DNA of 26,331 nt from a virus: IMG/VR virus record IMGVR_UViG_3300042391_000611, positions 1-26,331 of that record. One strand, written 5' to 3'. Numbering within the stretch: the first letter of the stretch is position 1; every line of letters begins with the position of its first letter. The translations under genes and the position numbers were made by a program. The notes under the pieces are model-generated. The model was given only the letters and a program-made list of their open reading frames with translations. It searched no databases and had not been told where the DNA came from. This document shows positions 2,603 to 26,331 of this stretch, one piece after another.

Positions 2603-2777
2603 AAAATGCGAGAATTGCGACTTGTCCGAGTCGGGACGTGTCAGGATTAGAATCCCTTGTTTCTCGCGGGTGTCTGCGTAGCAGGCCGCTTGTAACGGGT
2701 GCAGGCAGGTGTCGCACGTTGTGCGGCTGCTTTGACTCGTCGTGAGTCTGCTAGATTACTTCGGAGATGTCAAATAA
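2603..2777 (-). promoter_or_regulatory. leader region of the major capsid gene
   Basis: A gene-free stretch of about 175 bases between the terminator at 2778-2809 and the capsid ATG. It probably holds the capsid promoter, but I cannot point to convincing -35 and -10 boxes. The frame of the capsid gene is open upstream for some 45 codons and encodes a CxxC-containing peptide, but it has no ATG or GTG, so I do not extend the gene. No other structure is evident. Confidence 0.4.
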
Positions 2778-2809
2778 AAAAGCGGCCCCCATTTCTGAGA
2801 GCCGCTTTT
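2778..2809 (-). terminator. terminator between scaffold and major capsid genes
   Basis: A perfect 9-bp stem, AAAAGCGGC at 2778-2786 with GCCGCTTTT at 2801-2809, has a 14-base loop. The minus strand continues with a run of T (GCTTTTTTATTTG), typical of rho-independent termination, and the plus strand also has TTTT in the right arm. It sits about 50 bases past the scaffold stop, so it separates portal/scaffold transcription from the capsid unit. Confidence 0.8.
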
Positions 2810-2857
2810 GCTATGCCACAAACATATACCACCCCAGCACCACACCGAAGTTCGCCT

Positions 2858-19401: not shown

Positions 19402-19415
19402 ATAAATAAATAAAG

Positions 19416-19441
19416 TTTGCACTTTTTTTCCGTCGTGCAAA
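19416..19441. promoter_or_regulatory. inverted repeat in the divergent control region (candidate operator)
   Basis: TTTGCAC at 19416-19422 and GTGCAAA at 19435-19441 are perfect inverted copies with a 12-base spacer that is T-rich. They lie between the leftward and rightward operons and next to the AT-rich tract, where a regulator could control both. The ribbon-helix-helix or LacI-like proteins in this window are possible binders. No repressor is identified. Confidence 0.45.
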
Positions 19442-19470
19442 ACTGGAGCCGCTCAAGTGAGCTAACAAAT

Positions 19471-19878
19471 ATGAAACACGAATACACCGACGCCATACTT
19501 CAAGCTGCCATTGACGCGGCTTTTAACACGCAATCAAACGTCCCTTGGGGAAGCTTGGACACTCGCGACAAACACGATGGACACTGGAAAAGCGAATCCC
19601 CCGCCCGCCTAGCCCTAGCCCGCGCCCTGCTTGACAAGCTGCCAGAGCCCACGCCGCCAGTCTCGGTTGACAGCCAGCCTGCCGAGGTGGAGACACCTTG
19701 GACTCCCAAAGTCGGCGACGTGGTGCGGCTCAAGTCGGGCGGGGACGCATTGACAGTGACGGAATACGACGCCGAAAAGAACCAATGGCGCTGCGTTGGT
19801 CTGACTGGTGGATGCCCTTGCTATTTGTGCGTTCCGCTCGCTTGTCTCAAACCTGCGGCCAAGGAGGAACAGCCATGA
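19471..19878 (+). CDS. hypothetical protein with DUF2158/YodC-like segment
   Basis: A 135-residue protein. The N-terminal part (MKHEYTDAILQAAIDAAFNT) and a Pro-rich linker lead to KVGDVVRLKSGGDALTVTEY (about 82-101), the pattern of the small YodC/DUF2158 beta domain, though here with a Cys-rich insert (GGCPCYLCVP). Function unknown. First gene of the rightward operon; the ATG follows CAAGTGAGCTAACAAAT, with no strong Shine-Dalgarno. An upstream ATG at 19417 lies within the T-rich control region and is less likely. Confidence 0.62.
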   Translation: MKHEYTDAILQAAIDAAFNTQSNVPWGSLDTRDKHDGHWKSESPARLALARALLDKLPEPTPPVSVDSQPAEVETPWTPKVGDVVRLKSGGDALTVTEYDAEKNQWRCVGLTGGCPCYLCVPLACLKPAAKEEQP

Positions 19879-20252
19879 ACCTCGACCAACTAAAAACCGA
19901 ACTCCGCGAGTTCATCAAGCTCAGTCAGATGCTTGGGTCAACCACCTGGACACTCGAAGAAAAAGATTGGGGATGGGAACTCAGCGCAGAAAAATACTTT
20001 GCTGACCTTCACAAACTCACAAATGAGCCCGAGGAAGTTGCCGAAGCTCGCGCCTCATTCATCGCCCGCTCCCGCAACATCTCGCCGACGATGGCGAAGA
20101 TGATGTTGGTGGCGGTGGAACACATCGAAGCTATGTCAATGGGGGTGAACGTCGAGTGCTCGGATGAAATGCTTCGAGCTTACGACCAAGATTCAAAACT
20201 CGCCCAAGAGACGCTCCAGCAACTCCTAAACCTCTGGGAGGAAACGAAGTGA
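19875..20252 (+). CDS. hypothetical protein, Ead/Ea22-like motif
   Basis: A 125-residue acidic, mainly helical protein. The stretch EEVAEARASFIARSRNISPT followed by MAKMMLVAVEHIE is like the motif found in small accessory proteins of temperate phages (Ead/Ea22 type), whose role is unclear. The start is the ATG overlapping the upstream stop (ATGA), with AAGGAGG 7 bases before it. It ends WEETK, whose codons hold the Shine-Dalgarno for the next gene. Confidence 0.62.
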   Translation: MNLDQLKTELREFIKLSQMLGSTTWTLEEKDWGWELSAEKYFADLHKLTNEPEEVAEARASFIARSRNISPTMAKMMLVAVEHIEAMSMGVNVECSDEMLRAYDQDSKLAQETLQQLLNLWEETK

Positions 20253-20524
20253 ATAAAAAACAAACTCAGTTCTGGATTCTCGACACCGGAACCGCTGGCA
20301 TGTCAGCGGGGACGCTGCAAGCTCACGGGCCATACCCTACGCAAGTCGGCGCTGAACAGTGGCTCAAAGACACATCCGCCGAAGACTGGCTAAGTTCCTG
20401 CGGATGCCTGCGAACTGGCGACCCGCAAGCATGGGGTGATGAATATATTATCGTCCAAGTGGTGCGCAAGGTTAAGCCTGTGCCGCCGACTAAAATTAAA
20501 ATGAAATTGGAGGAAACGAAATGA
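20249..20524 (+). CDS. hypothetical protein, GTG start
   Basis: A 91-residue protein (MNKKQTQFWILDTGTAGMSA at the N-terminus, with a CGCLRTGDPQAWGDEYIIVQ middle). No family recognised. The GTG overlaps the previous TGA (GTGA) and is preceded by GGGAGGAAACGAA. It ends KLEETK, nearly the same as the end of the previous gene, and these codons again form the ribosome-binding site for the next gene. Confidence 0.6.
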   Translation: MNKKQTQFWILDTGTAGMSAGTLQAHGPYPTQVGAEQWLKDTSAEDWLSSCGCLRTGDPQAWGDEYIIVQVVRKVKPVPPTKIKMKLEETK

Positions 20525-21018
20525 ACACCAACACGCCAGAAACAGATGCCGAAACAATGGACGGCTCATTTAAAGAGCAGGGATGCACTATCACGTTGCG
20601 ACAATGGGACTACTACAAGTCTCCTGACGGCGACGTTGTAATGGCTGACTTCGCCCGCCGACTCGAACGCGAGCGAGACGCCAGCCGCGCCCAACACGCC
20701 GCCGACGTAGCCGAGCTAAACGCCCGACTCATCGACCGCCACGCCGACATGATGGCAACCATCGTGATGATGCGCACGGAGGTTAGAACAGCAGAAGCCG
20801 AACTCTCCGTGTCCAACGGCGAGCGCGACCACTACCGGCGCGAGAATGCGGAGATGCGGGAGGCGATCAAACAGTGTCACTCCTGCATCTCGTTATTCCT
20901 TGGCTGGCATTCACGAGACTTAGGAATGGATCACCTGCGCTACGTTTCGGAGACGTTAGCGAAGTGCGCCAATCAGCTTAACCATTCCTCTCCTGCCACT
21001 TCGCAAGAAAAGAGCTAA
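20521..21018 (+). CDS. hypothetical coiled-coil protein
   Basis: A 165-residue protein starting MNTNTPETDAETMDGSF. Residues about 42-122 are heavily charged and predicted by eye to form a coiled coil (MADFARRLERERDASRAQHA and on). The N-terminal TPETDA with a later ADFARRLERERD pattern is common in small accessory proteins of phages of unknown function. GGAGGAAACGAA precedes the ATG. Its end overlaps the end of the minus-strand 20978 gene by 41 bases, so the two operons converge. Confidence 0.62.
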   Translation: MNTNTPETDAETMDGSFKEQGCTITLRQWDYYKSPDGDVVMADFARRLERERDASRAQHAADVAELNARLIDRHADMMATIVMMRTEVRTAEAELSVSNGERDHYRRENAEMREAIKQCHSCISLFLGWHSRDLGMDHLRYVSETLAKCANQLNHSSPATSQEKS

Positions 21019-21184: not shown

Positions 21185-21306
21185 TCCACACATTGAGCCA
21201 CGATGTCAGCGAGCAGCAAGGCGATAATCGCGAGCAGACCGACGCCGACGCCAAACGCAGCGATGGCAAATAGCGACGCGGAGATTTGCCAGAACGCGAG
21301 TCTCAT
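21181..21306 (-). CDS. 41-residue membrane peptide after the endolysin
   Basis: The product MRLAFWQISASLFAIAAFGV then GVGLLAIIALLLADIVAQCV is almost entirely hydrophobic, with one long transmembrane helix (about 5-34). Both ends are coupled by ATGA overlaps, with the amidase upstream and the Cys-rich gene downstream. A holin-related or spanin-related role fits the context, but nothing in the short sequence proves it. Confidence 0.55.
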   Translation of the reverse strand: MRLAFWQISASLFAIAAFGVGVGLLAIIALLLADIVAQCVE

Positions 21307-21845
21307 AAGAGTTCCGCGATAGCCTCACAAGCTGCCATCCTGCGCACGGGATCAACCATCGCGGCAAGGTCCGCCGCGTTGTCGATGAATCCTAGCTCAA
21401 TGAGGAAACACGGCTGGAATGCCATTACAGCAAGCCTTGCGTGCTGCGACTGCTCTTCAGTTTTGATGCCGCGCGACTTGGTTCCCAGCGCCTTGCAAAT
21501 CGCCGCGTTGATCTTCTCTGCCAGTGGCGCGTTGAGCTTGCCACGGTAAAACGTCTCAGTGCCGTTTGCTGCCCCATTCGCCGCGTTGCAATGCAGGCTT
21601 AGCATAATCTCGCATCCGTATTGTTCAGCGATGCCTGCGCGCTCCGTGACGGGCGTGTGATCGCTGCTGCTTATGCGCGTGCGAATGACCTTGTGCCCGC
21701 GAGCCTGTAGGATGGCTCGAAGCTCATTTGTCCAGTCCATCGCAATCTCGGCCTCCTTTTTACCAAAGGCGCACGCACCGGAATCATAGACGCCCGTGCG
21801 CTTATTTGACATCCCGTGCCCAGGATCAATGCAGACGTTTCTCAT
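21303..21845 (-). CDS. endolysin: N-acetylmuramoyl-L-alanine amidase
   Basis: A 180-residue Amidase_3 enzyme that cleaves the bond between muramic acid and the stem peptide. Zinc and catalytic residues are visible: H10 in CIDPGHG, E31 in GKKEAE, H85 in LSLHCNA and E150 in FLIELGFIDN. No signal peptide, so release needs a holin. The ATG at 21843-21845 overlaps the stop of the upstream 31-residue membrane ORF (ATGA); a longer reading from 21866 adds MFLLMPK and is less likely. It is in the lysis cassette, as expected. Confidence 0.92.
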   Translation of the reverse strand: MRNVCIDPGHGMSNKRTGVYDSGACAFGKKEAEIAMDWTNELRAILQARGHKVIRTRISSSDHTPVTERAGIAEQYGCEIMLSLHCNAANGAANGTETFYRGKLNAPLAEKINAAICKALGTKSRGIKTEEQSQHARLAVMAFQPCFLIELGFIDNAADLAAMVDPVRRMAACEAIAELL

Positions 21846-21937
21846 TTTTGGCATGAGAAGAAACAAGCGATGATGCTAAACGCTCCAAAGGAGAGAATGC
21901 CAAAAGCAATCCCGAGAAATAGCCCAGCGATGTCCAT
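21842..21937 (-). CDS. 31-residue membrane peptide before the endolysin
   Basis: MDIAGLFLGIAFGILSFGAF then SIIACFFSCQK is one hydrophobic helix (about 4-28) with a short polar end. The ATG shares a base with the upstream TAA and the TGA overlaps the amidase ATG, so the reading is enclosed by coupled genes. It may help the holin or regulate lysis timing. Too short for family recognition. Confidence 0.55.
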   Translation of the reverse strand: MDIAGLFLGIAFGILSFGAFSIIACFFSCQK

Positions 21938-22110: not shown

Positions 22111-22382
22111 GGCTTTTTTTTTGGTTCTTTGTGTTGTTCGACTGAGTATGTGTTTGTATCCAGCTTCCCAGCGAAAGGGCATCCGTCCACGCGGCAGGCG
22201 TTAATGAGTTTAGCCGCTCCTTCAGCGAGTCCAAGCCTCTCCGCCATCTCGGATATTAACGGTTCTTTTTCGGATCGCCATTCCTCACACTGTTTTGACC
22301 GCTCCCAGATGATCCGGAAGAGGAAGCACAGCCCGCCAGTTACGGCAGAGAGCGCAGTGAGGAGAGCGGTTTCTAGTGTCAT
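22107..22382 (-). CDS. membrane-anchored lysis-cassette protein
   Basis: A 91-residue protein with an N-terminal transmembrane helix (about 7-26, LLTALSAVTGGLCFLFRIIW), then a charged helical part (ERSKQCEEWRSEKEPLISEM, then AERLGLAEGAAK) and two Cys (CRVDGCPF). The C-terminus is KKKP. Inner-membrane spanins and antiholins can look like this, but it lacks a clear outer-membrane partner. It overlaps both neighbours by four bases. Confidence 0.52.
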   Translation of the reverse strand: MTLETALLTALSAVTGGLCFLFRIIWERSKQCEEWRSEKEPLISEMAERLGLAEGAAKLINACRVDGCPFAGKLDTNTYSVEQHKEPKKKP

Positions 22383-22795
22383 AATGCGTTGATGCTGACG
22401 GCGTCGATCTCCGCATAAATAGGGCGTGGATGCATGATGGACCTAGGATCGTTAGAGTGGCCGAGCCCGAGCGCATGACCTATCTCATGCAGCGCCAACG
22501 CGCGGAAACATGGCCGATTTGTGAAGGCACGGTGCATCCAAGACGTAGCCCACTGCCGCGATGGATCAAAGATGATTGAGTGTCTCCCGTTGCCGAGGGG
22601 ATAATGCCACGCAACAGCGGAGTCCTGCGGCGGCTTTCCTCCGCTGAAAGTAATATCTGGACTGCCGTTAGTTGCCATGAATCGCAGAGTTGCTTTGCTT
22701 GCGATTGACCATTTATTCATCGCCCACACAATGCAAGCCGCCGCCCCTTTGGGCAGGTTGCTGGGGTGGATGATGTAGCGGTAAGTTTTGCTCAT
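22379..22795 (-). CDS. matrixin-like zinc metalloprotease
   Basis: A 138-residue protein with the metzincin zinc site HEIGHALGLGH (H103, E104, H107, H113) followed by a Met-turn SIMHP (M121). The upstream part (ACIVWAMNKWSIASKATLRF, then SPDITFSGG) is the shortened catalytic core of matrixin-type proteases. No signal peptide or prodomain is visible. It would cut peptide bonds; whether in host wall peptides, surface proteins or virion precursors is unknown. It lies between fibre genes and the holin, which suggests a virion or lysis role. Start overlaps the upstream stop (ATGA). Confidence 0.82.
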   Translation of the reverse strand: MSKTYRYIIHPSNLPKGAAACIVWAMNKWSIASKATLRFMATNGSPDITFSGGKPPQDSAVAWHYPLGNGRHSIIFDPSRQWATSWMHRAFTNRPCFRALALHEIGHALGLGHSNDPRSIMHPRPIYAEIDAVSINAL

Positions 22796-24364: not shown

Positions 24365-24742
24365 CTATTTCTCCCCTCTTTTCCGCAACTTTGCAAGGGT
24401 AGAATTGAAGTCGTGGAACCGGAGATTGTTCCGCTTTTGCCAGCCGATGAGCGGCAGGGAATAGGGGAAAAGGACGAGGAGCGAGGCAAGATCACCGGCA
24501 GCGAGCCACACAAGCCATGCGTCTTGCTCCTCACGCGGGAAGCTGTGCCACGGATTTAGGATCAACTCAGTCTCCGCTAATGAGTCCACCGGCCTTGCCA
24601 TCACGAACGCCGTTGGAGTGCTGTGAACGTAGCCGTTTAGCAAGTGAGCTTCGAGGTCTTCGCGGAAGCTGGCGCTGCATTCCTCGCGGGTGTAAACTTG
24701 GGCGGCGAGCTCTGCGGGTGATAACATGGTGAAAAATGCCAT
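24365..24742 (-). CDS. hypothetical protein heading the tail-fibre/lysis operon
   Basis: A 125-residue protein (MAFFTMLSPAELAAQVYTRE, then ECSASFREDLEAHLLNGYVH, then SLAETELILNPWHSFPREEQ). The first half suggests an alpha/beta fold and the middle (DAWLVWLAAGDLASLLVLFP) is hydrophobic. No family is recognised. The longer reading from 24967 would run through a terminator and structured RNA, so I use the ATG at 24740-24742; an ATG five codons on is the alternative. No Shine-Dalgarno is visible. Confidence 0.58.
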   Translation of the reverse strand: MAFFTMLSPAELAAQVYTREECSASFREDLEAHLLNGYVHSTPTAFVMARPVDSLAETELILNPWHSFPREEQDAWLVWLAAGDLASLLVLFPYSLPLIGWQKRNNLRFHDFNSTLAKLRKRGEK

Positions 24743-24830
24743 TGACTTCACGGAATGGAAAGCGGAGAATCGACCCACGATATAGGTTTGCTCTGTGGTA
24801 GGAGTGATCCGCTCTACAGCGCAAGCCACT
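24743..24830 (+). promoter_or_regulatory. upstream part of the HNH cassette, with a 10-mer complementary to the terminator loop
   Basis: This stretch before the terminator contains TCTGTGGTAG at 24792-24801, a perfect inverse of CTACCACAGA at 24844-24853, which covers the terminator loop and the first two bases of its 3' arm. A TATAGG at 24782-24787 could be a weak -10. The pairing could compete with or be stacked on the terminator. No coding region is seen on either strand. Confidence 0.4.
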
Positions 24831-24862
24831 AAGGCCCGATCTTCTACCACAGATCGGGCCTT
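24831..24862 (+). terminator. strong terminator with complementary upstream element
   Basis: A perfect 11-bp stem, AAGGCCCGATC at 24831-24841 with GATCGGGCCTT at 24852-24862, has a 10-base loop TTCTACCACA. On the plus strand it is followed by TTTT; the minus strand has only two T after the stem, so it acts mainly on rightward transcripts. The loop plus two bases are complementary to 24792-24801. It stands upstream of the HNH operon. Confidence 0.75.
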
Positions 24863-24875
24863 TTCGTTGGTTACT

Positions 24876-25018
24876 TGCCCAACGTCCACAAAACAGGGCA
24901 GCGAAGCGGAAACGCTAGCACCGCTGGACATGCAGGCTTGAGACGCCAGTGCTACCCGAAGCGGCAAACTCGGGTGACTTCGCTGGGGGCTTATATGTCG
25001 GGGCGAAGTAAAACAAAT
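24876..25018 (+). ncRNA. candidate structured RNA upstream of the HNH gene (four-way junction)
   Basis: A short hairpin TGCCC/GGGCA (24876-24880 with 24896-24900) is followed by a nested fold: outer stem CAGCGAAG (24899-24906) with CTTCGCTG (24978-24985); a hairpin AGCG-GAAA-CGCT with a GNRA tetraloop (24905-24916, sharing two bases with the outer stem); a bulged hairpin AGCA+CTGG (24917-24920, 24924-24927) with CCAG+TGCT (24946-24953); and ACCCGA (24954-24959) with TCGGGT (24970-24975). An alternative pairing ACTTCGC/GCGAAGT (24977-24983 with 25003-25009) competes with the outer stem. The fold is by eye. No family is recognised and it is not a tRNA. Confidence 0.42.
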
Positions 25019-25099
25019 CCGGCAAGCACTCCTTTTCCTTTCATTCGCATGAGGGGAGGGGGAGCATTGCCAGAGAGAGTCTGCTCTTTACCTTTATGA
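24995..25099 (+). CDS. possible short leader ORF before the HNH gene
   Basis: A 34-residue reading (MSGRSKTNPASTPFPFIRMR then GGGALPERVCSLPL) whose TGA overlaps the HNH ATG in the ATGA arrangement used by the next two genes. The same frame is open back to a TTG at 24875, through the predicted RNA fold. Its composition is unremarkable and no ribosome site is obvious. I list it because of the overlap; it may be chance. Confidence 0.25.
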   Translation: MSGRSKTNPASTPFPFIRMRGGGALPERVCSLPL

Positions 25100-25449
25100 A
25101 CTATCACGCTTATCTGAAATCAGCTCAATGGAGCGCCAAAAGGCAGGCAAAGCTAACTGAGGCAAATTTTTGCTGCCAGAAATGCAAACGCCGCAGCAAT
25201 CTACAAGTTCACCACTTAACCTATGAGCGGCTAGGCTCAGAGCTTTTGACGGATTTGCAGGTGCTGTGTGATCGTTGCCACGAAAAGGCACACAATCTTT
25301 TCCCTGCCTATGTGGATGATTGGAAGCCCACGAAAAAAGGAGCAACTCCAAAGTATGAAAAGCCCGTCGAAATGCATCCTCTTTTTAAGTATGTGAAGCC
25401 GTTAAAAGATGGTCGAATTCCGGGCTATCGTAACCCCTCCGAAAAATGA
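25096..25449 (+). CDS. HNH endonuclease
   Basis: A 117-residue nuclease. Zinc-binding pairs are CQKC (C27, C30) and CDRC (C58, C61), and the catalytic HNH parts are LQVHHLTYERLG (H39, H40) and LTDLQVLCDRCHEKAH. Small HNH proteins of this form are often homing enzymes in phages. It is on the plus strand while the flanking virion genes are on the minus strand. A purine-rich GAGGGGAGGGGG lies 35-45 bases upstream, separated from the ATG by a GAGCA/TGCTC hairpin (25062-25066 with 25082-25086), an unusual leader. Downstream it overlaps a tiny ORF by four bases. Confidence 0.88.
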   Translation: MNYHAYLKSAQWSAKRQAKLTEANFCCQKCKRRSNLQVHHLTYERLGSELLTDLQVLCDRCHEKAHNLFPAYVDDWKPTKKGATPKYEKPVEMHPLFKYVKPLKDGRIPGYRNPSEK

Positions 25450-25589
25450 CCTTCACCGCCACAATACTAACCGCACAAAAGCAGGTCATCGAATCGGCCA
25501 CGTTTCCCACTTGGCGCGAGGCTGCGAATTGGCTGAATAAAACGACTGCGGAGGAACGGAGATGGAGCGAGATTAGAATAACACCATGA
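25446..25589 (+). CDS. 47-residue ORF coupled to the HNH gene
   Basis: MTFTATILTAQKQVIESATF then PTWREAANWLNKTTAEERRW. Its ATG overlaps the HNH stop and its TGA overlaps the next ATG, both as ATGA. It is helical and basic/acidic mixed, with no family recognised. Such chained overlaps favour real translation. It may be an accessory to the endonuclease. Confidence 0.5.
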   Translation: MTFTATILTAQKQVIESATFPTWREAANWLNKTTAEERRWSEIRITP

Positions 25590-25729
25590 GCGCCACTGAA
25601 TTTCTTGAATCAGATAAAAAGCTATCCGACCTCTCGCGGGCCGAGCTTCACTCGTTACTTTTCGACAAAAATATAACCGCTTGGCTTTATCAGGAGGTGT
25701 CGGAAGAATTGAGAAGTCGAATTCGATAA
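25586..25729 (+). CDS. 47-residue ORF, third gene of the HNH operon
   Basis: MSATEFLESDKKLSDLSRAE then LHSLLFDKNITAWLYQEVSE is a mostly helical, charged peptide of unknown family. The ATG overlaps the previous TGA. GGAGGAACGGAGATGG about 30 bases upstream is purine-rich but not ideally spaced. It is the last coding region of the cassette, followed 8 bases later by a strong composite hairpin. Confidence 0.48.
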   Translation: MSATEFLESDKKLSDLSRAELHSLLFDKNITAWLYQEVSEELRSRIR

Positions 25730-25737
25730 TATACATT

Positions 25738-25782
25738 CCCTCAGTAAAAGGGGCGGTTCGATTCCGCCTCATTGACTGAGGG
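25738..25782 (+). other. composite hairpin with a tRNA T-arm-like apex
   Basis: An outer perfect 8-bp stem CCCTCAGT (25738-25745) with ACTGAGGG (25775-25782) encloses a 4x4 internal loop and an inner 7-bp stem GGGGCGG (25750-25756) with CCGCCTC (25764-25770, one G-T pair), closed by the 7-base loop TTCGATT. G53-TTCGATT-C61 is exactly the form of a canonical T-arm. No T-run follows, so it is not a typical terminator. It may be an RNA processing, stability or recognition element of the HNH transcript. Confidence 0.55.
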
Positions 25783-25913
25783 CTGGCGCGAAGGGATCAA
25801 GGCGCAATTCCTTGTGATATGTGGCTGGCAAATGGTCAACCTAACTCTAGTGAGACAAATGGTCAGGGCGGCACGTCCTTTAGCAAGCTGGCGGAATCCG
25901 GCCTAGTGCACCT
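25783..25913. repeat. gene-free stretch with a 10-base direct repeat
   Basis: CAAATGGTCA occurs at 25829-25838 and again at 25856-25865, a spacing of 27 bases. CTAGTG occurs between the copies and again after them (near 25847 and 25901). No coding region is seen on either strand. The stretch separates the HNH cassette from the end of the large virion gene and could be a recombination or cassette boundary. Confidence 0.4.
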
Positions 25914-26331
25914 TCACTCACTCAGCCGCTCCTGAATCTTGCGAGCTTCACGAATCACGTTAGCGCCAACGTCAGCAGCGCCACCCGCAGGGCCGATAGC
26001 AGCAGACATACCGGCAGCGGCAGCGGTGGAAAGCGAATCGAGCGCATCCATGAACTCCTCTGGATTGTCAGGATCAAAAAGCTCATCCATATTTTTGCCA
26101 CCCTTGAGAAGATCATTCGCCGCTTTGCTCGCGAGGTCATCGGCAGGGAACACGCGAAGGCCAAGTAATCCGCGCCCGAGTTTGTCAATGAGTCGGCCAA
26201 AAACGAACAGCCCGTTGATAGGGCCGAGAGTGAGGGCAAGCGTCCACTGCTCCGTGCTCAATTCACGATCACGATCTTCATCGTCACCGAGCAGTGAAGC
26301 GATCACAACGGCCATGACCTGCGAGACTCCG
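25914..26331 (-). CDS. C-terminus of a large virion (internal/ejection-type) protein
   Basis: The last 138 codons of a gene that enters from the right edge; the frame stays open to the edge. The sequence VMAVVIASLLGDDEDRDREL, then LTLGPINGLFVFGRLIDKLG, followed by an Ala/Gly-rich helical segment, is typical of the C-terminal membrane-like part of very large podoviral proteins that are ejected with the DNA. The pattern GDD-DRD then TLGPINGL is common in such proteins. The end IREARKIQERLSE is helical. Only the tail is visible, so enzyme domains cannot be judged. Confidence 0.6.
   Translation of the reverse strand, partial: GVSQVMAVVIASLLGDDEDRDRELSTEQWTLALTLGPINGLFVFGRLIDKLGRGLLGLRVFPADDLASKAANDLLKGGKNMDELFDPDNPEEFMDALDSLSTAAAAGMSAAIGPAGGAADVGANVIREARKIQERLSE

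Follow-up and report, generated by a model that had tools for sequence, protein, structure and literature searches.

Attenuator and riboswitch leaders such as the crcB and pfl motifs are 5′ leaders that precede varied downstream genes, and their intrinsic terminator overlaps the conserved fold (PMC2864571). Free-standing phage HNH genes (e.g., T4 mob and Aeh1 mobE) are intergenic and have RNA structure upstream; the hairpins before free-standing homing genes mostly hide the ribosome-binding site, and for T4-type homing genes in opposite orientation, antisense transcription has been pointed out as a disadvantage (PMC2988022). Phage morons are self-contained units with their own promoter, inserted between genes that are adjacent in relatives, and in HEARO RNA and the IsrB-IscB omegaRNA a structured RNA lies upstream of an ORF with an HNH domain.

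The locus described here resembles each of these and departs from each. It lies in an uncultivated virus whose record, 26,331 bases long, is referred to here as the window; the leader of the locus is an RNA that we call RNA1. Unlike the attenuator and riboswitch leaders, RNA1 has a terminator whose own loop pairs with an upstream domain, lacks a match in Rfam, and was found only in phage contigs. Whereas T4 mob and Aeh1 mobE are HNH genes with hairpins in front, RNA1 is a conserved leader of several helices, includes a terminator, and is also found without an HNH gene. Compared with morons, the cassette in the window places a terminator-like hairpin right behind its promoter, before the cargo, and unlike HEARO and IsrB-IscB, it has no HEARO match, its protein is a 117-aa HNH-only product, and the RNA is kept elsewhere without HNH. 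We read the cassette as a promoter-driven unit that opposes the late genes and is led by a transcription attenuator, with the nuclease making it a free-standing homing or moron-type cassette, and give this reading a probability of about 0.6.

Layout of the cassette

The window carries podovirus-like virion genes, with a portal whose nearest isolates are BPP-1-type phages (~30% identity). The cassette (24742-25782, plus strand) consists of a promoter, RNA1, a second RNA region (RNA2), the HNH gene, and a coupled pair of tiny ORFs. One flank is formed by the gene of a 120-aa protein (24365-24727, minus strand) and the other by a very large minus-strand virion gene, with its stop at 25914, which is convergent with the cassette. 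A preliminary description of this DNA had reported an HNH cassette opposite in orientation to the minus-strand genes on both flanks, and this is what we see; the cassette is more than chance, and that earlier observation largely holds. Its features are as follows:

24742-24770, plus strand: sigma-70-like promoter, TTGACT-17-GAGAAT (promoter scan, 9/12)
24785-24868, plus strand: RNA1, leader RNA with terminator, ~85 nt (covariance model R1; two-sided pair changes)
24785-24791, plus strand: P1 5′ strand, pairing with 24821-24827 (covarying helix)
24792-24801, plus strand: K segment, partner of the terminator loop (8/8 columns change on both sides)
24801-24810, plus strand: P2, short hairpin with a GUGA tetraloop (conserved across alignments A4 and A7)
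24814-24817, plus strand: conserved CTAC after P2 (conserved across alignments A4 and A7)
24821-24827, plus strand: P1 3′ strand (covarying helix)
24831-24864, plus strand: P3, intrinsic-type terminator (12-bp stem, then TTTT; 7/9 pairs with two-sided changes)
24844-24853, plus strand: K′, in the loop and upper stem of P3 (complementary to K)
24869-25095, plus strand: RNA2 type A, between terminator and HNH gene (homologous to L180, L188, L198, and L200)
24876-24900, plus strand: RNA2 hairpin 1, TGCCC/GGGCA (covariation)
24901-24919, plus strand: RNA2 hairpin 2, GNRA tetraloop (covariation; loop GAAA/GTAA/GGAA)
24954-24975, plus strand: RNA2 hairpin 3, ACCCGA/TCGGGT, with conserved loop AGCGGCAAAC (4/6 pairs with two-sided changes)
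25096-25449, plus strand: HNH endonuclease gene, 117 aa (Pfam PF01844; PHROG 119 and 144)
25446-25589, plus strand: orfA, 47 aa, ATGA-coupled to HNH (ORF only)
25586-25729, plus strand: orfB, 47 aa, ATGA-coupled to orfA (ORF only)
25738-25782, strand unassigned: nested inverted repeats on the 3′ side of the cassette, with a T-arm-like hairpin (minus-strand terminator-like sites at 25738-25768)

RNA1, a probable leader with a predicted built-in terminator

RNA1 can be divided into P1 (~6-9 bp), K, a short hairpin, CUAC, the closing strand of P1, a G+C-rich hairpin, and a U-run, in that order. The short hairpin is usually capped by GUGA or GUAA, CUAC is present in most copies, and the conserved motifs are GUGAUCYG and CUAC. 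Copies were gathered by two IMG/VR pattern scans together with the covariance model R1; RNA1 recurs in ~20 uncultivated phage contigs, and 18 copies were aligned (L239 and L240, from the last viral pattern scan, were discarded as chance matches). The RNA1 of the window, which is in the training set, matches R1 at E 2e-14, and five copies outside the model-building set (L102, L071, L072, L257, and L258) still match it, with E values of 5e-15 to 2e-4.

In the 18 aligned copies, pairing is intact in 99.6% of the cells of P1 and the terminator stem, with 40 two-sided changes, in an alignment (A7) that was fitted to the P1/P3 structure and favors these two stems, K lying outside the model. None of 500 shuffles matched these 40 changes, and sliding the partner by 1-3 columns as a control lowered the P1/P3 pairing to 27-49%. 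The fold of RNA1 has a z of -6.3 versus dinucleotide shuffles, and the folded segment 24778-25095 of the window a z of -5.05 versus shuffles. An alternative P2 pairing taken from the minimum-energy fold of the window is absent in other RNA1 copies and was rejected.

The preliminary description had also noted a terminator whose loop pairs upstream, and the comparison bears this out: the hairpin at 24831-24862 pairs through 10 bp of K and K′ (24792-24801 with 24844-24853), and the arrangement is kept across lineages. All eight K columns have changes on both sides, and cognate K/K′ runs measure 6-10 nt in the 18 copies, as against mostly 3-5 between unrelated copies. The sequence of K differs by lineage while its complementarity to the terminator loop is kept within each copy, and in several members the paired bases reach into the uppermost part of the terminator stem. 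A G+C-rich stem and U-run before the first gene are conserved in all RNA1 members; that of the window may be a weak terminator because its U-run is short (TTTTCG, four U only).

In 15 of the 18 copies, RNA1 is preceded by TTGAC at a distance of 34-47 nt (expected, 0.014 per 14-base window), a count that includes many close relatives, with ~6/9 independent lineages carrying it; among the copies scanned, the hexamer is absent in L180, L257, and L071. By its position, RNA1 is the promoter-proximal, untranslated 5′ end of a predicted transcription unit. Elsewhere in the window, a plus-strand block (19417-21018) opens with ATAAATAAAGTTTGCAC...GTGCAAAACT (19408-19450, plus strand), which resembles the start of RNA1 P1, has neither terminator nor K pairing, and is a possible RNA1 vestige.

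What follows RNA1 varies, in related and unrelated phages alike. The HNH gene stands downstream in 4 of the ~20 contigs, including the 66.5-kb contig L102, which the searches for RNA1 added; elsewhere RNA1 is followed by an ordinary operon, by tiny ORFs, by another nuclease-like ORF, or by no ORF at all. RNA1 heads an operon unrelated to HNH in L069, L072-L074, L241, and L258, made up of small genes opposing the virion genes in L069, L072-L074, and L241, and it heads a PD-(D/E)xK-like ORF in L257; in L071, the slot is that of the window, and RNA2 type B comes next, without a recognized ORF. In L072, L069, and L241, near-invariant RNA1 copies are immediately followed by the first gene of an operon, a different gene in each of the three, with its ATG ~10-20 nt past the U-run. 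Genome G026 has two RNA1 copies that differ in P1 and K and are cross-complementary by only 3 nt, the first between the major capsid and scaffold genes, before the PD-(D/E)xK-like ORF, and the second before an operon. The mismatched K segments of these two copies favor a cis-acting leader.

One might instead regard RNA1 as a stand-alone phage small RNA, with the terminated ~85-nt transcript as its product and the downstream genes incidental. Its own promoter and terminator, its compact fold with conserved GUGAUCYG and CUAC, and its variable or missing cargo would all suit such an RNA. We consider this unlikely, since each of the two different copies in the same genome heads a unit, RNA1 is nearly invariant in L069, L072, and L241 while the first genes of the operons differ, and K changes so freely that a fixed RNA target for it is improbable.

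The put RNA of HK022 is a precedent for an antitermination RNA that modifies RNA polymerase. By analogy, RNA1 (perhaps with RNA2) could be a put-like element, after which a modified polymerase would ignore its own and later terminators, and the placement of a structured RNA close to the promoter, where phage operons begin, agrees with this. The terminator, however, lies within the conserved fold, with its loop paired to that fold, an arrangement that fits control of that very terminator better, and we hold a put-like role to be very unlikely.

In the attenuator reading that we prefer, RNA polymerase would start a few bases before P1, make the ~85-nt RNA1, and meet the intrinsic terminator. The transcript would fold into P1, a short hairpin with a GNRA cap, and the terminator hairpin with its loop paired to K; this pairing would set the efficiency of termination. 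The GUGA hairpin and CUAC, both conserved, may be where control is exerted by a factor, a ligand, or the stage of the phage. Most transcripts would end at the terminator, read-through alone would yield a message of RNA2 and HNH-orfA-orfB, and the nuclease would turn the unit into a free-standing homing or moron-type cassette, the same attenuator being reused by phages before units that oppose the late genes. Sequence comparison demonstrates how RNA1 folds, that K is paired, that RNA1 lies close to the promoter, that it is reused before different genes, and that insertion sites differ; that the terminator works, that it is regulated, and that the HNH protein homes is what we infer. If this is correct, RNA1 would represent an RNA family not described before, whose terminator takes part in a pseudoknot through its own loop, phages would use it as an interchangeable leader for units opposing late genes, and a selfish nuclease gene could be read against virion genes without constant antisense transcription. 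RNA2 would add further structured RNAs outside known families.

Searches of several collections bear on the novelty of these RNAs. Rfam 15, at gathering and relaxed thresholds, gave no match for RNA1 or RNA2 in the window or its relatives, the sole hit in this region of the window being to the hairpin ribozyme (16.6 bits, E 3.6, gathering 65). Nothing similar to the RNA1 and RNA2 regions was found in 50,697 phage records, and a plasmid similarity search with one RNA stretch (L199) gave no match in PLSDB. An RNA1 pattern run on 84,980 cellular genomes returned 37 stretches, none with both the closing stem and a cognate terminator loop, although this pattern requires GTTTGC and divergent copies such as L071 would escape it; the R1 model found no match in four cellular genomes, a sample too small to mean anything. 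Judged against these collections only, RNA1 looks like a previously undescribed RNA family. The idea that RNA1 is part of a tRNA was rejected, as no tRNA was found.

The preliminary description had proposed that the RNA might be a degenerate intron core. A nuclease ORF adjoining a structured RNA with a GNRA hairpin would invite this reading, yet the models for group I and group II introns and HEARO have no match in the window even at E <= 10 and none in relatives. The RNA is intergenic, there is no interrupted gene that its removal would restore, it is 5′-terminal behind a promoter-like element, and its covariation is intact and hence gives no sign of decay. That the RNA is what remains of a group I intron, or of some other intron, is in our estimation exceedingly improbable.

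RNA2, the nuclease gene, and their possible partnership

RNA2 denotes the ~220-450 bases between terminator and cargo, where several types (A/C, B, D, and E) are swapped. In types A/C (the window, L180, L188, L198, and L200), all 16 tested pairs are formed (100%) and 8 have two-sided changes, in a sample of five sequences, effectively about three independent ones; in type B (eight sequences), 95.6% of 34 pairs are formed and 14 have two-sided changes. The alignments from which the helices of both were picked, by eye or from a fold, are the ones on which they were tested, which favors these helices somewhat. Type D is 93% identical over 212 bases in two unlike phages, preceding HNH in L099 and a different nuclease-like ORF in L257 (G026), and type E is a single instance, the stretch in L102. 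Taken alone, RNA2 has a z of -2.6 (the background has a mean of -0.35 and an sd of 1.5), a stability slightly above that of shuffles, and in several members its stability is unremarkable; the case for RNA2 therefore rests on covariation.

A four-way junction with a GNRA tetraloop had been described here from the sequence. The GNRA hairpin (24901-24919) is real and has a covarying stem, but the junction comes from energy prediction only, and the comparison supports three hairpins (24876-24900, 24901-24919, and 24954-24975) in its place. The broader claim of a structured RNA ahead of the HNH gene stands, with covariation present and conservation extending beyond the HNH frame. Two other candidates were set aside: RNA2 as a coding sequence, because the overlapping ORF (24875-25099) hits an in-frame stop in L180, and a pseudoknot in type B (columns 224-228 with 323-327), for which a single pair covaries and which we do not propose.

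As the preliminary description had it, a 117-aa HNH ORF is followed by two ATGA-coupled 47-aa ORFs. The protein scores 22.7 bits against Pfam HNH PF01844 (cut-off 21.4), with an HNH fold and intact Cys/His residues that are conserved in L063. Its closest relatives are 62% (L063/L099) and 56% (L101/L180) identical over nearly the full length, and in both the HNH gene again opposes minus-strand virion genes and has the same RNA in front. An alignment of HNH run against cellular genomes found no relative, orfA has no family or homolog, and no homolog of orfB was found.

That description had also suggested a new RNA partner for the nuclease. RNA2 and the HNH protein could be a functional pair, either a nuclease that an RNA guides or assists or a ribozyme and the enzyme that homes with it: covariation is seen in RNA2 of types A/C and B, the second RNA region stands before nuclease ORFs in the window, L180, L099, L102, and L257, and type D is nearly the same before different nuclease-like ORFs. 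This last point also tells against a dedicated partner, as does the occurrence of RNA1 mostly without HNH. Moreover, RNA2 lacks a recognizable nuclease ORF in L071, L181, L184, L188, L194, and L198-L200, its types are mutually unlike, the HNH protein is of a short common type that matches HNH only and not the RuvC-like plus HNH domains of HEARO/IsrB, and there is no HEARO or intron match; we think such a pair highly improbable. RNA2 is kept without a visible cargo ORF in L199 and L071, which suggests a role beyond leading a gene. A bolder reading is conceivable but doubtful: the RNA2 modules (A/C, B, D, and E) could be a group of unclassified phage RNAs that share RNA1 as their leader, move together with exchangeable nuclease genes, and work as ribozymes or ribonucleoproteins to aid the spread of the cassette or control its nuclease.

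Other ORFs can take the place of HNH behind RNA2. A small PD-(D/E)xK-like ORF does so behind type D (L257:2535-2873, plus strand), its assignment resting on a motif, VIIEVK, picked out by eye, with Pfam NERD below the cut-off (E 0.11); a homolog lies at L076:6033-5698 (minus strand), where there is no RNA1 match. Unrelated ORFs are found at L198:2788-3027 (80 aa) and L181:1013-1201 (63 aa), neither with a family match above the cut-off.

Insertion sites and neighboring elements

Relatives without the insert are the obvious place to look for its ends. In L064 and L065 (neighbor 88% identical), the cassette is absent, the flanking genes are intact on both sides, and the virion gene is separated from the next gene by ~85 bp. 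These relatives confirm the insertion but leave its exact ends in the window undefined, the adjoining 120-aa gene being absent as well.

Across the contigs there are at least three kinds of cassette site: the end of a virion gene (the window and L071), the junction of the major capsid protein (MCP) and scaffold genes (L180, L183, and L257), and a position near the terminase (the L099 group). The MCP/scaffold junction of the window (2603-2857) is empty and holds a terminator-like hairpin similar to the one seen by eye between the 3′ end of the cassette and the end of the scaffold gene in L183, L180, and L257. On this comparison, the junction and its counterparts appear to be an insertion hotspot. 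In G006, a 1,723-aa plus-strand ORF lies behind the capsid gene.

On the 3′ side of the cassette, the T-arm-like hairpin noted earlier exists (25752-25768), but it scans as a minus-strand terminator-like site, and no tRNA was found. The nested repeats at 25738-25782 are probably a terminator between the convergent orfB and virion gene. The direct repeat is also real but short (CAAATGGTCA at 25829 and 25856).

Further along the minus strand of the window, a Matrixin-type (Peptidase_M10) metallopeptidase gene (22379-22795; Pfam E 1.3e-12) lies near an Amidase_3 gene (21303-21866). Known RNAs also accompany some RNA1 phages. The abiF RNA (RF03085) exceeds its gathering score downstream of RNA1 cassettes at L184:9735-9771 and L181:1277-1313 (both minus strand), and a type-P1 twister ribozyme match (48.3 bits, gathering 67.2, E 5.6e-8) lies at L244:4782-4846 (minus strand), in the phage that carries the L102 cassette.
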